Assembly: GCF_004322775.1 (NCBI RefSeq)
Contig: NZ_CP036403.1
Coordinates: 3,100,001-3,164,000, forward strand
Direction of reading: 5' to 3'
Length of the DNA: 64,000 bases
DNA from: Ornithinimicrobium sufpigmenti
GTDB taxonomy: Bacteria; Actinomycetota; Actinomycetes; Actinomycetales; Dermatophilaceae
The notes beneath the pieces were generated by a model. The model was not told the DNA's origin and did no database searches. It saw nothing but the letters and a program-made list of their open reading frames with translations. The first letter of the stretch is position 1, and the number at the start of each line of letters is the position of its first letter. Below, in pieces: positions 3,200 through 60,769 of the stretch. The position numbers and the translations under genes are program-made.

Positions 3200-4458
3200 T
3201 GGCCGGACGCCTCCGGCGGTGCGGCCTGGTCGGCGGGGACGGTGTCGATGAGCTCCGGCACCCACTCGCCGTCCTCCTCCACGAGGCGGGCGGTGTACAT
3301 GTCCTGGATGAGCGCGTGGTCGCTCTCCCGGATGGTGGTGGTGCCCTTCGGGCCCTCGAACTCCCAGCCCTCGAGCGCGTCGACCATCGCGTTGACGTCG
3401 TCGCCGCCCTCGGCGATCGCCTGGACGATCATCTGACCCGCGACGAAGCCGTCGGGGGTGAACAGGTCGGGGGTGCCGCCGGCCTCGGTGACGTGGTCGA
3501 CGAGCGCCTGGTTCACCTCGTTGTCGGGGGCGCCCGGGAAGTAGTGCGACAGGAAGCTGATCCGGTCGCTGACCTCGCCGTAGGCGGAGTAGGTGGCGCT
3601 GTCGGCCAGGCCGGTGACGACCGGGGCGGCCTCGAAGACGTCCTGCTGGTCCAGCGCCTGCCACATGCTGCCGGCGGTGGCGCCGGCCCAGGCGACGAAG
3701 ATCAGGTCGGGGTCGGCGTCGACGAGCTGGCGGGCGAAGCCGGTGAACTCGGTCGCGTCCTCGGGGACCATGACCGACTCGACCTCGGTGCCCTCGCCGC
3801 CGAGGACGAGCTCGACCGCGCTGAGGTTGCCCTGGCCGAAGGCGTTGTCCTGCGCCAGGACGACGATCTTGCCGCCCCCGTCGGGCAGCATCGCGCCGGC
3901 GGTGGCCACGTCCTGCAGGCTCTGCCGGCCGGAGCGGAAGGTGAACTCGTTGATGCCGGTCACCACGTCCGCGGCCGCCGGACCGGAGATGTAGAGGATC
4001 TCGTTCTGCTCCGCCTGCTCGGCCATCGCGACGGCGATGCCGGAGACGACGGTGCCGCCCAGGATCTGGAACTCCTGGCCGATCAGGTCCCGGGCCGCCG
4101 CCACGGCGGTGTCGGCGTTGCCCGCGTCGTCGCGGTAGGTGATCTCCACCGGACGGCCGTTCACCTCCCCGGTGCCGTCGGTGGCGTAGTCAAGGCCGGC
4201 CTCCAGGCCCTCGCGGTACTGCTTGCCGTAGGCGGCCAGCGGCCCGGTCTCGGAGTAGATGATGCCGACCTGGACCGGCTCACCGGAGGCTTCCTCCGCG
4301 GCGGTGCCGGTCGAGTCGTTGTCGCCGGTGCTGTCCGCGTTGTTGCCGGAGTTGTTGCCCTCGTTGCCGGAGTCGGAGTCGTTGGTGGGCGCGCAGCCGG
4401 CGACCACGAGGGTGCTGGCGGCCACCAGGGCGAGCAGGCGGGCTGGGCGTGAGATCAC
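3196..4458 (-). CDS. livK: Branched-chain amino-acid ABC transporter substrate-binding lipoprotein
   Basis: A 420-residue periplasmic-type binding protein (Leu/Ile/Val-binding, Peripla_BP_6) anchored as a lipoprotein. It has a basic N-terminus, a hydrophobic signal segment and the lipobox VVAGC, followed by a long Asn/Ser/Asp-rich linker and then the type I fold opening VGIIYSETGPLA. I chose GTG 4458 because AAGGAG sits 7 nt upstream. The ATG 10 codons further upstream (4488) has no such site. It is the first gene of the liv operon, and its 4-nt overlap with livG indicates coupling. Ligand choice among branched-chain amino acids, amides or urea cannot be decided here. Confidence 0.92.
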
Positions 4459-9894: not shown

Positions 9895-9975
9895 CGGAAG
9901 ATCCCTGGCTCTCCCCTGAGCACCGTCGGGCCGGACCCCGCCGACCCGTGCCGCCTGCGCACCTTGAGCCGGGTT

Positions 9976-10013
9976 GTCATGGGTGCGCCGGCAAGAACCG
10001 GCTCCCCCATGAC
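9976..10013. repeat. Palindromic repeat, type B, solitary copy (B0)
   Basis: 16-bp arms with two mismatches around the loop CAAGAA. Its reverse complement matches copy B1 (40412-40449) at 36 of 38 positions, including the loop TTCTTG. It lies between the hydrolase stop and the ispH start, both on the minus strand. The flanks also resemble those of B1 and B2 (CCGGCTC-like, then GGT and TGC). No nuclease gene adjoins this copy. Confidence 0.85.
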
Positions 10014-10049
10014 GAGCCAGCTCTCTGTGTGGCTCATGAGGCGCCCCGC

Positions 10050-12237: not shown

Positions 12238-12275
12238 CGGTAGCCCGGTGTCGCGATGGCGACACCGAACTACCG
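12238..12275. repeat. Palindromic repeat, type A, upstream copy (A1)
   Basis: Left arm CGGTAG, two unpaired bases, CGGTGTCGC; loop GATG; then the complementary arm GCGACACCG, two unpaired bases, CTACCG. It ends 106 bp before the start of gene A. It shares length and most positions with A2 (13369-13412) on the other side of the gene. Confidence 0.85.
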
Positions 12276-12381
12276 TGGACCCGCGCGTCAAGTAGACCCG
12301 CCCCTCAGGCAGACCCGTGCTTCAGGCCGCGGCTGTGGACAAGTCCTGCCCCCGGGCTCCCGGCTCGGACATCCTCGTCCC

Positions 12382-13359
12382 ATGTCGAGACCGCTGCCCC
12401 CGGTGATCTCGCGCCAGCAGGCGCTGGCGCGGGGCATCACGCCGTCGATGATCCGGCACCGGCTCAGGACCGGCCGGTGGCAGAGGATCTTCGCCGGGGT
12501 CTATGCCACCTACAGCGGGGAGGTGGCCTGGCGAGACAGGGCCAGGGCGGCGACCCTGGCGCGAGGACCGGGAGCAGTCGTCAGCCTGCACTGCGCCCTG
12601 CACCTCTGGGGCCTGCACCCGTCCGCGCCGCAGATCCTCACGCTGGCCGAGCCGGAGGCGGTGCACCGGCACGGCCCGCTGCCGGGCGTCCGCACCCGCC
12701 GACGTCGGCGGCTGACGGCGGCCATGCGCCATCAGGTCCCCGTGACCTCGCTGGCCCAGACGGTCCTCGACATCCTGGCGCTCCCGGCGACCACCGTCGA
12801 CGACGCCCTCGCTCTGCTCACCCGTGCCGTGTCGATGAGAAGGATCACCGTCCCCGAGCTGCGCGAAGAGCTGCTCCACCATCCCCGGCACTCGCGCCGA
12901 GGGGTGCTGGAGGAGATGCTGGTCGCCGCGGAGTCCGGCCTCGGCAGCGTGGCCGAGGCCCGCTACGTGCGCGATGTCGAGCAGGCCCACGGCCTACCAC
13001 CGATGGAACGACAGGTGCCGATGGACGGCCCGCAGGCGGTGGCCGACGGCCGGTCGCGCCGCCTGGACTTCATGGACCGGCGGAGGGGGCTGGGTCTGAA
13101 GATCGACGGCGACCTCTTCCACTCGACCCGGCAACGTCAGGACCGCAGCCGGGACCGGGAGGCCGCCGGCAAGGGCGAGGTGACGATCCGGGCGGGCTGG
13201 GTCGAGGTCGTCGTCCACCCCTGCGACCTCGCCGCCGACGTGGCCGCTGCCCAACAGGCACGGGGATGGGCAGGGCAGCCTCGCTCCTGCGGCCCCGACT
13301 GCCGGCTCCCCCATGACCCGCGCTGGCGACACCTTCAACCTCTCGCCGCGTCTGGTTGA
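12382..13359 (+). CDS. AbiEi-like winged-helix / DUF559 (Vsr-like) protein, 'gene A'
   Basis: A 325-residue protein common in actinobacteria but of unknown role. Residues 1-60 match the AbiEi_4-type winged helix (ISRQQALARGITPSMIRHRLRTGRW-like, then GVYA), followed by a middle domain (LHCALHLWGL). The C-terminal DUF559 domain of PD-(D/E)xK fold shows RRLDF at about 230, KIDGDLFHS, and a late GWVEVVV strand. The usual Glu of the E-x-DG motif is Lys here (GLKIDG), so nuclease activity may be lost. ATG 12382 follows CATCCT by 6 nt. The gene is bracketed by palindromes A1 and A2 and splits xseA from xseB. No AbiEii toxin gene is next to it. Confidence 0.75.
   Translation: MSRPLPPVISRQQALARGITPSMIRHRLRTGRWQRIFAGVYATYSGEVAWRDRARAATLARGPGAVVSLHCALHLWGLHPSAPQILTLAEPEAVHRHGPLPGVRTRRRRRLTAAMRHQVPVTSLAQTVLDILALPATTVDDALALLTRAVSMRRITVPELREELLHHPRHSRRGVLEEMLVAAESGLGSVAEARYVRDVEQAHGLPPMERQVPMDGPQAVADGRSRRLDFMDRRRGLGLKIDGDLFHSTRQRQDRSRDREAAGKGEVTIRAGWVEVVVHPCDLAADVAAAQQARGWAGQPRSCGPDCRLPHDPRWRHLQPLAASG
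13302..13334. repeat. Half-copies of both palindromes within the 3' end of gene A
   Basis: 13302-13317 (CCGGCTCCCCCATGAC) equals the right arm of B0 at 16 of 16 positions. 13321-13334 (CGCTGGCGACACCT) equals part of A2 (13388-13401) at 14 of 14. Together they encode roughly residues 307-318 of gene A, so the C-terminal tail appears to be built from repeat sequence. Confidence 0.85.
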
Positions 13360-13368
13360 CCCATAGGT

Positions 13369-13412
13369 CCGCGGTAGGTAGGTGTTGCGCTGGCGACACC
13401 TACCTACCGCGG
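13369..13412. repeat. Palindromic repeat, type A, downstream copy (A2)
   Basis: 20-nt arms (left arm begins CCGCGGTAGGTAGG, ends GTTGC; right arm GCGACACC then TACCTACCGCGG) with one G-T wobble around loop GCTG. It begins 9 bp after the gene A stop and lies between convergent genes, so it could also act as a terminator. It is homologous to A1. Confidence 0.88.
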
Positions 13413-37853: not shown

Positions 37854-37893
37854 CCGGTGCAGGTATGGCGTGGACACGCCATACCTGCACCGG
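37854..37893. repeat. 40-bp perfect palindrome in the rpsD-rpoA spacer
   Basis: Two 19-nt arms (CCGGTGCAGGTATGGCGTG and its exact complement) flank a 2-nt centre. It lies between rpsD and rpoA, 101 bp before rpoA. It may act as partial terminator, processing site or repeat element. Confidence 0.85.
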
Positions 37894-40271: not shown

Positions 40272-40411
40272 CGCGAGAATCAACCCCCAAGGCCAATCCG
40301 TCAGCGTACCCGGTCTGCCGCTCTCCTCCGGCACGACCCGCGGCGGCTGTGACCGTGTCGCCGCACTACCGCAGGACCCTCGGTCTCTCCCCTCCCACCT
40401 CATGCCGGTCT

Positions 40412-40449
40412 GTCATGGGTGAGCCGGTTCTTGCCGGCCCACCCATGAC
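40412..40449. repeat. Palindromic repeat, type B, upstream copy (B1)
   Basis: Arm GTCATGGGTGAGCCGG, loop TTCTTG, complementary arm with one mismatch. It lies in the divergent spacer between infA and gene B, where no gene ends, so it is unlikely to be just a terminator. The sequence after it (ACCGGCTCAGGGTATGCGGC) also resembles the flanks of B0 and B2. Confidence 0.88.
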
Positions 40450-40577
40450 GAACCGGCTCAGGGTATGCGGCACGGGCGCGGCCGCGGGTCCCCGCCGGCT
40501 CCGTTCGCTCCGCGTTTGTCCACAGCCTGCGCGCCGGCCACTGCGGGGCCCCGCCCGCCTGCGCCACGGTAGACGCT

Positions 40578-41564
40578 ATGTCTCCCGAGCTCGCAGCGTT
40601 CCTGGCCAGCCACGGCCAGGTGGTGACCACCGCCGAGGCCAGTGCTCTGGGCGTCAACCGGGAGACCCTGCGCTCCCTCGTCCGTGCCGGGGTGCTGACG
40701 CGCGTGGCGAGGGGCGCCTACGTGCTGACCTCGGCGTTGGCGGCGATGGACCACGAGTCGGGGCGTCACCTGCTCGCAGCCCGGGCCATCCTGCGCTCGC
40801 GCCCCGGTGCCTGGGCCGCCAGCCATGCCACGGCCGCGGTCGTCTGGGGCCTGCCCGTGCTTGAGAGGACGCTGGACCGGATCCATGTCGTCCATGCCAT
40901 GCCCGTCGGGAGCGTGCGTCGCCACGACGCCTTCACCGTGCACCGGTGCCCGGGGACGGCATACCTGATCGAGCGTGCGGGGGTCCCCACGGTCACTCCC
41001 GAGGTCGCGGTGGTCGGTGTGGCGCTGCTCGGCCCCCTGGTCTCCGCGGTGATGGCTATGGACGCTGCGTTGCGTGGCGGTTTCTGCACCCGCACATCCC
41101 TCGAGGACGCGGTTGGCCGCGCAGCCCACGTCGCCGGCGTGGGACGCGCACGTCGGGCGCTGGCGGCGGCGGACCCGACCGCGGAGTCGCCCGGCGAGTC
41201 GTGGCTGCGGGTGATCCTGCAGGCCCTGGGCTACGGGGTGGTGGCACAGCACCCGCTGCGGGACGAGCAGGGACTCATCGGGTACGTCGACTTCTACCTG
41301 CCCGAGCTCGGTGTCGTCGTGGAGTTCGACGGCAGGGTGAAGTACCAGGGTCGCCTGGGCGACGGGCTCAGCCCCTCAGACGCGGTCCTGGCCGAACGAG
41401 CCCGCGAGCGCAGGATCCGCAAGCTCGGCTATGGCGTCGCCAGGGTGGTGTGGGCCGAGCTCTTCGACCAGGAGAAGGTGCGCCGCGAGGTCGACCTGGC
41501 GGCGCGCACCGCTCGCCGTGACCTGATCGCCAGGCACGAGCGGGCCCGCGGAGGGCGGCGCTAG
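40578..41564 (+). CDS. AbiEi-like winged-helix / DUF559 (Vsr-like) nuclease, 'gene B'
   Basis: A 328-residue protein with the same plan as gene A but low overall identity by eye. Residues 1-60 are an AbiEi_4-type winged helix (VVTTAEASALGVNRETLRSLVRAG, then GAYVLT). A middle domain has HATAAVVWGL. The DUF559 domain (about 205-310) has an intact PD-(D/E)xK-like set: GYVDFYLPELGVVVEFDG, then ERARERRIRKLGYGVARVVWAELFD. It probably binds and cuts or nicks DNA, but no target is known. It lies on the plus strand inside the minus-strand ribosomal cluster, between map and infA, bracketed by palindromes B1 and B2. A weak -10 (CACGGT) lies 7 nt before the ATG. No toxin partner adjoins it. Confidence 0.8.
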   Translation: MSPELAAFLASHGQVVTTAEASALGVNRETLRSLVRAGVLTRVARGAYVLTSALAAMDHESGRHLLAARAILRSRPGAWAASHATAAVVWGLPVLERTLDRIHVVHAMPVGSVRRHDAFTVHRCPGTAYLIERAGVPTVTPEVAVVGVALLGPLVSAVMAMDAALRGGFCTRTSLEDAVGRAAHVAGVGRARRALAAADPTAESPGESWLRVILQALGYGVVAQHPLRDEQGLIGYVDFYLPELGVVVEFDGRVKYQGRLGDGLSPSDAVLAERARERRIRKLGYGVARVVWAELFDQEKVRREVDLAARTARRDLIARHERARGGRR

Positions 41565-41633
41565 CGAGACGGACCGACCCGAGCGGGGGGTCGGAGTCCC
41601 AGCCGACGCACGAGTCACACCTCCGGCCGCTTC

Positions 41634-41671
41634 GTCATGGGTGAGCCGGAACGAACCGGCTCACCCATGAC
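41634..41671. repeat. Palindromic repeat, type B, downstream copy (B2)
   Basis: Perfect 16-bp arms (GTCATGGGTGAGCCGG and complement) around AACGAA. It begins 69 bp after gene B. The loop is closest to the reverse complement of the B1 loop, so B1 and B2 face each other like terminal inverted repeats. Confidence 0.9.
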
Positions 41672-41713
41672 ATACCGGATCTGGGTGTGTCGCGAGCGAC
41701 AGGTGGGGACGAC

Positions 41714-60721: not shown

Positions 60722-60769
60722 CGCCAAGGGGCGGGTATGCCGTGCGGTACGGCATACCCGCCCCTGGCG
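60722..60769 (-). terminator. Terminator after rpoC
   Basis: 17-nt arm AGGGGCGGGTATGCCGT and its exact complement around GCGGT, with extra pairing CGCCA/TGGCG outside. It lies 16 nt after the rpoC stop. The arms contain GGTATGCC. Confidence 0.88.

Follow-up and report, generated by a model that had tools for sequence, protein, structure and literature searches.

Gene B lies in a ribosomal cluster of Ornithinimicrobium sufpigmenti, in a 64-kb stretch of DNA that was analysed as a whole and is called the window here. It is on the plus strand amid a minus-strand cluster, as the sequence-only reading had described, and was the sole plus-strand gene among the 13 predicted within 36–46 kb. The identity of map comes from Pfam and that of infA from an ORF read by eye and tblastn to relatives; the names secY, adk and rpmJ are based on ORFs read by eye, and the names ispH and alpha/beta hydrolase, beside a solo repeat, on ORF reading, not family search. 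Gene B and its repeats comprise the following features.

40396..40465, unstranded: 5' repeat B1, about 70 bp, with palindromic core 40412–40449
40515..40525, plus strand: DnaA-box-like element TTTGTCCACAG before gene B, its TCCACA beginning 59 bp before the start codon
40578..41564, plus strand: gene B, encoding a 328-aa AbiEi-Vsr fusion, a putative nuclease
40578..41174, plus strand: AbiEi-antitoxin-fold part of gene B, residues 1–199, with the winged helix at the N terminus
41187..41519, plus strand: Vsr/EDxHD-type nuclease domain of gene B, residues 204–314
41618..41687, unstranded: 3' repeat B2, about 70 bp, with core 41634–41671, inverted relative to B1
9960..10029, unstranded: solo gene-B repeat (core 9976–10013), between ORFs reading as ispH and alpha/beta hydrolase

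A Pfam scan of the gene B protein gave a solid AbiEi_4 match at the N terminus (E 1.7e-13), bearing out the AbiEi-like winged helix that had been read there, and no transposase domain. Structure matching placed AbiEi over residues 1–199 and Vsr/I-Bth0305I over residues 204–314. The C-terminal part is Vsr-like by fold, and E207, D238, E249, D251 and K255 of the nuclease domain were invariant in 54 aligned sequences. An intact DUF559 motif had also been read, and here the match to the Pfam family was not upheld: the C-terminal part of gene B is below the Pfam cut-off for DUF559 (PF04480), with nothing at E≤1, and a genome-wide search gave 0 matches. Named homologues of gene B are annotated as AbiEi antitoxin-domain, hypothetical or very-short-patch-repair proteins. 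The protein had no match by sequence in the PDB and, searched whole, none in 50,697 phage records; the nuclease domain had a single distant match in 72,556 plasmid records, and a search with this domain alone gave 6 proteins, 2 of them named.

Gene B has the antitoxin fold of the AbiE type IV toxin-antitoxin systems but is fused to a nuclease, and no AbiEii nucleotidyltransferase toxin gene was seen adjoining it, the neighbours being infA and map. With I-Bth0305I, other EDxHD homing endonucleases and Vsr it has in common the Vsr-like catalytic fold, from which cleavage is predicted; it differs from them in its AbiEi-type reader domain, in the lack of a phage match and, since no Rfam family was matched over 38–44 kb, in the lack of a known intron there. 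According to excerpts of its description (PMC12907096), the DUF559 protein VsrA of Caulobacter is likewise a Vsr-like nuclease, of the PD-(D/E)XK superfamily, but is tied to a solitary cytosine methyltransferase, and those excerpts do not mention flanking repeats. A search that covered mainly open-access papers gave nothing joining DUF559 with an inverted repeat or AbiEi, and the papers that joined it with a palindrome were seemingly unrelated.

Palindromes of 38 bp had been placed at 40412–40449 and 41634–41671; both positions were exact. The repeat unit proved longer, at about 70 bp: in an alignment of the 8 copies of this genome and 2 from the genus-mate G019, the 38-bp core is enclosed by the conserved ends CACC...GGTG. 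B1, between the divergent infA and gene B, has a core with 16-bp arms, a 6-nt loop and one mismatch, and the core of B2, between the convergent gene B and map, is a perfect palindrome. The two copies aligned better inverted (SW 81) than direct (SW 65), in agreement with the inverted orientation first proposed. Single-stranded DNA folding gave z scores of −6.0 (B1) and −7.2 (B2) against dinucleotide shuffles; covariation in ten gene-B elements, from pair counts, was not above shuffles and so gave no support for recognition as a folded single strand. Hairpins with a stem score of at least 11 numbered 13 in the whole window, whereas three first-order Markov resamplings gave 1, 0 and 0.

The two palindromes do belong to one family, which was found at 8 places in the 4.17-Mb genome (a single contig of 4,169,359 bases) with at most 3 mismatches, the reversed-pattern control giving 0. 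These places are B1, B2, the third copy in the window and five elsewhere, that is, 6 beyond the flanking pair. Among 30 genus-mates only G019 had a match (one). Strong palindromes containing GGTATG, possibly another repeat family, were seen at 37854–37893 and 60727–60765 of the window and at 3595–3643 of locus L012.

We gathered 174 loci of this kind: 7 from the same genome (gene B included), 57 from named records, 109 from the genus and gene A of the window. The genus listing had 122 rows, of which 30 came with loci, 6 were among the own-genome loci and 86 were other rows; 81 of these 86 were taken in 80 stretches and 5 were left out. Gene models were our own, some with wrong starts (that of gene A, for example), and were available for 159 of the 174 loci (15 had none); 154 had usable 450-bp flanks (5 dropped). 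Each locus was scored by the best local alignment (SW) of its own 5' flank with its own 3' flank. The score was at least 40 at 107 of the 154 loci, compared with 1.35 expected from 6160 swapped pairs. A score of 34 was reached by 114/154 family loci and by 0/154 neighbouring genes (maximum 33), a control that covered named loci and the window but no genus loci. The match was present in named (31/42) and genus loci (76/112), and when loci were clustered by identity, matched members formed the majority in 28 of the 40 clusters at 50% and in 11 of the 17 at 40%. Scores in the own genome were 81 for gene B, 103 for L013, 58 for both L014 and L015, 48 for L012, 37 for L010 and 24 for L011. The expectation of a matching pair at every such gene was only partly borne out, 47 of 154 loci scoring below 40; two sub-40 loci of the own genome look matched, L010 on inspection and gene A with a corrected start.

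Scanning the paralogues for hairpins alone overlooked most of the matched flanks, since many of these are tandem and not palindromic, and was replaced by flank-to-flank alignment with the swap and neighbour controls. One style of flank has a single long palindrome on each side (gene B, L111, L037), and the other has tandem arrays of about 20-bp units that are inverted between the flanks (L014, L015, L057). At 46 loci with non-palindromic repeats, the orientation was inverted in 34 and direct in 12. A strong self-match at an offset of 14–45 bp was found in 98 of 214 flanks of matched loci, compared with 1 of 214 shuffled flanks. The commonest offsets were 32 (17 flanks), 22 (16), 21 (9) and 19 (6), then 17, 29, 30, 42 and 44 (4 each), counts that are not independent because orthologue groups supply several flanks each. 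The main offset peaks fall close to two and three turns of the helix and so suggest recognition of double-stranded DNA from a single face.

The window holds a second gene of the same kind, gene A, which a search with the gene-B protein did not detect at E≤0.001.

12238..12275, unstranded: 5' palindrome of gene A, of a repeat family that differs from gene B's
12334..12342, minus strand: DnaA-box-like element TGTGGACAA before gene A, 48 bp before the reassigned start
12382..13359, plus strand: gene A, with its start moved from 12256 to 12382
13369..13412, unstranded: 3' palindrome of gene A, matching its 5' partner (SW 46 direct, 40 inverted)

In the longer ORF (12256–13359) the AbiEi matches start at residue 45 or later, and the start at 12256 is probably wrong. 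The start at 12382 was chosen because of the position of the AbiEi match, the DnaA-box-like element at −48 and the repeat spacing; it frees the 5' palindrome, and the flank score is 46 with this start and 27 with the ORF start. A half-palindrome like the gene-B repeat was also seen at the 3' end of gene A (window 13302–13317).

The whole 64-kb window has just two occurrences of TTRTCCACA, one ahead of gene A and one ahead of gene B, and the element of gene B recurs with the same class and distance in many relatives. Within 150 bp before the start, TCCACA/TGTGGA was found at 129/154 loci, compared with 3/154 of the 3' flanks and 22/396 random 150-mers; for TTRTCCACA the corresponding counts were 78/154, 0/154 and 1/396. 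The core lay at either of two fixed distances before the start at 96/154 loci, in distance windows that were chosen after the distances had been seen. The TCCACA core was commoner in genus loci (105/112) than in named loci (24/42). The upstream element is a putative DnaA box by its resemblance to the actinobacterial consensus. At the contig start, past an ORF read by eye as DnaA, we found TTTATCCACAG and GTTATCCACAG; six cores fall within 400 bp there, which fits the DnaA boxes of oriC. A −35-like reading of CTGTGGACAAC was set aside because both strands were about equally represented (48 and 52 occurrences) and two different fixed distances were used. Lying before the start codon, the element probably ties expression of these genes to DnaA.

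Repeat privacy and synteny were counted among the 107 matched loci only (76 from the genus), giving 5671 pairs. Repeats were shared by 0/5458 pairs below 50% protein identity, 10/107 at 50–60%, 10/39 at 60–70%, 17/24 at 70–80% and 43/43 above 80%; above 70%, where orthologues in place make up most of the pairs, sharing is due in part to common descent. Among the 76 matched genus loci, 61 of 62 pairs with at least 70% protein identity were syntenic on at least one flank. For the most part the genes are inherited at a fixed position, and it is the repeat, not the gene, that multiplies. Syntenic genus pairs at 50–70% identity had repeats in common in only 10 of 45 cases, while the two flanks of each locus still matched (matched loci only); the two flanks of a locus have thus changed in concert. 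The best predictor of repeat similarity was winged-helix identity (standardised 0.50 vs 0.21 and 0.15, over 172 non-independent pairs).

Copies of several repeats were dispersed in the genomes that carry the cognate gene. The L015 motif had 72 matches in the own genome, including those beside L015 (control 1), and 1–7 in each of 30 relatives (reversed control 0–4); outside this genome, the closest L015 homologue has 57% identity. The raw count for the L013 family was 100 against a control of 36 at 3 mismatches, and for this reason only pairs of forward and reverse copies at a distance of 41 bp were counted; of the six such pairs, two flank L013 and four are solo. The motif of the clade formed by L199, L200, L206, L212, L213 and L215 had 16–363 matches in 8/8 carrier genomes (G003, G004, G008, G013, G020, G021, G028 and G029, assigned from the listed match places), with one gene listed per carrier; the match to the clade gene in G013 has an internal stop. 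Carrier flanks, from which the pattern was derived, account for only a few copies. Among non-carriers, in which no gene of the clade was detected, G016 had 109 matches, G012 had 18, G030 had 9 and the other 20 genomes had 0–5. At least 10 matches were thus present in 8/8 carriers and 2/23 non-carriers (Fisher p 5.7e-6, with a cut-off picked after the counts had been seen). G016 holds an orphaned population of this repeat, 109 matches without a detected clade gene, and may have lost that gene. Inverted arrays of the L015 motif were also seen to bracket other ORFs (L260, 1529–2973; L261, 1472–2376; L262, 1434–2659), which are not nuclease relatives (no tblastn match at 1e-4), as if cargo could be bracketed too.

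By approximate gene calls, 48 dispersed sites from four families lay between convergent genes (22), between codirectional genes (18), between divergent genes (2) or inside genes (6); the convergent share was 4/7 for the gene-B family, 4/4 for L013, 8/21 for L015 and 6/16 for the L199 clade. This placement is close to that published for REPs, as given in excerpts of PMC3733652. At five array sites of G004 compared with G003, no clean target-site duplication was seen, the junctions having diverged; a recognisable unit was present at 0/5 of these sites in G003, with one decayed array by eye.

Taken together, we think it probable that gene B belongs to a large actinobacterial family of AbiEi-Vsr fusions with private repeats, which resembles REP/RAYT but has an unrelated enzyme, and for which we infer binding, cleavage and dispersal. 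The suspicion that the unit recognises itself in the manner of REP-RAYT systems thus gains strong family-wide support from flank matching, privacy and cognate dispersal, and the palindromes were not placed at random relative to these genes.

The repeats could instead be operators, at which the protein would repress itself, with the 3' copy aiding looping, the dispersed copies acting as decoys or a regulon and the nuclease acting elsewhere. Excerpts of PMC7319586 provide a precedent in AbiEi and Rv2827c, which are autoregulated through inverted repeats in their promoters. The 5' repeat ends a median of 90 bp before the start, the spacing within the arrays suits binding by a protein, and repeat similarity follows the winged helix most closely. 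This account does not call for a matching 3' copy, at a median of 22 bp past the stop, or for up to 363 motif matches per genome, and with 22 convergent and 2 divergent sites among 48, most dispersed copies are not at the promoters of gene pairs. Nor do operators alone explain a solo element between map and infA in G012, described below. We regard this account as unlikely; the 5' copy may also serve in autoregulation as an AbiEi-like operator, which does not explain dispersal.

The map-infA junction had been described as normally uninterrupted, and the gap was intact in all genus-mates examined, namely the 28 of 30 in which map was found at E≤1e-60 (G017 and G023 were excluded). Gene B was absent from 28/28 gaps, which at 89–312 bp are too short for it, and none of these relatives carried gene B without palindromes at this site. 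The gap of G019, the closest relative (map 91%), holds one degenerate gene-B repeat in line with B1 (SW 46); the best gene-B relative in that genome is only 50% identical and is located elsewhere. The gap of G012 holds a solo palindrome with a 30-bp stem, which aligned at SW 118 with the repeat flanking G012's nuclease L153, is missing in four aligned relatives (G003, G013, G016 and G021) and shows no clear target-site duplication. Apart from these two, no gap among the 28 scored above 33 with the repeats of any of the 107 loci. Two unrelated nuclease-tied repeat families thus occur in one gap in two lineages.

The absence of gene B from this site in the relatives and the single degenerate repeat in the closest of them would fit a transposon or homing element made of the whole gene and its repeats, in which the palindromes would be the ends or the target, as would the resemblance of the nuclease domain to a homing endonuclease and the mostly inverted non-palindromic repeats (34/46). 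We consider such an element improbable: the genes are mostly syntenic across species, the L199 clade has one gene per carrier against 16–363 motif matches, and solo repeats occur where no gene stands. The mobile cassette originally envisaged is thus the less well supported part of the first reading: gene B is absent from the site in 28/28 relatives, but the genes mostly stay in place (61/62 pairs syntenic). That the palindromes are ordinary bidirectional terminators, alike by chance, is scarcely credible, even though B2 lies between the convergent gene B and map and the window has further strong hairpins: terminators need neither match within a locus nor be private to a clade, neighbouring genes gave 0/154, no T run follows the hairpins (sequence read by eye), and this reading was set aside because the matching is locus-specific.

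In the reading we prefer, an AbiEi-Vsr protein that spreads its own repeat, the winged helix of AbiEi type would read the cognate repeat. On both sides of the gene this repeat is built of short half-sites in symmetric or inverted arrays, many of them spaced by about whole helical turns. The Vsr/I-Bth0305I-type domain, judging by its fold and invariant acidic residues, would cut at or near repeat sites. Repair of the cuts would copy the short repeat elsewhere, mostly between genes, and would keep the copies alike, the two flanking the gene included; this step is suggested by the joint turnover of both flanks and by a dispersal largely confined to genomes with the cognate gene. The gene itself mostly stays in place, and the DnaA-box-like element before its start would probably couple its expression to DnaA.

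REP/RAYT systems, as described in excerpts of PMC2817692, PMC3733652 and PMC8266576, have a nuclease gene flanked by two private, co-evolving repeats and dispersed copies that often lie between convergent genes, in numbers tied to the cognate gene. The AbiEi-Vsr family has the same genetic signature as RAYT/TnpA-REP and REPINs (PMC2817692, in part). Two cognate inverted repeats flank gene B as they do a RAYT gene, and in the family 107/154 loci are matched, with 34/46 of the non-palindromic repeats inverted. Repeat abundance likewise depends on the cognate gene (72 vs 1–7 for L015; 8/8 carriers for the L199 clade), with G016 and G012 as exceptions. RAYTs are HUH (Y1) tyrosine transposases, whereas gene B combines an AbiEi fold with a Vsr/EDxHD-type nuclease. 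The GTAG tag of RAYT repeats is absent from the alignment of gene-B elements, the only repeat family in which it was looked for. The AbiEi-Vsr repeats also differ in often being tandem arrays of half-sites at near-whole-turn spacing, which suggests double-stranded recognition, and the examples here are from Actinobacteria.

The CGTC-tagged REPs are dispersed palindromic repeats apparently without a dedicated transposase, with stems of 8–9 bp and loops mostly of 4–5 (excerpts of PMC3733652). The gene-B repeat is also a dispersed palindrome, and its own copies bear CGTC at exactly one end in 6/8 cases, at both in 1/8 and at neither in 1/8, a likeness that does not imply descent; its stem of 13–16 bp, a range set by inclusion or omission of the tag, and its loop of 6 are outside the published sizes.

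These results point to an undescribed family of AbiEi-Vsr enzymes that marks and probably spreads short repeats. We are evenly balanced on the broader claim that this is a second, evolutionarily unrelated solution to the one reached by REP/RAYT, in which fusions of an antitoxin with a homing nuclease would read double-stranded half-site arrays, cut them, and through repair seed and homogenise private repeats between genes across Actinobacteria under DnaA-box-tied expression. The finding pairs one protein family with its repeats, which reach 363 motif matches per genome, in a concrete way that can be tested. Some REP-like repeats, such as the CGTC REPs (PMC3733652, in part), have no known enzyme. 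The enzyme-site pairs are natural material for studying how DNA is recognised, and a link between DnaA and a nuclease that may spread repeats becomes open to test. The private pairing of enzyme and repeat also suggests why a genome holds many private versions of the gene.
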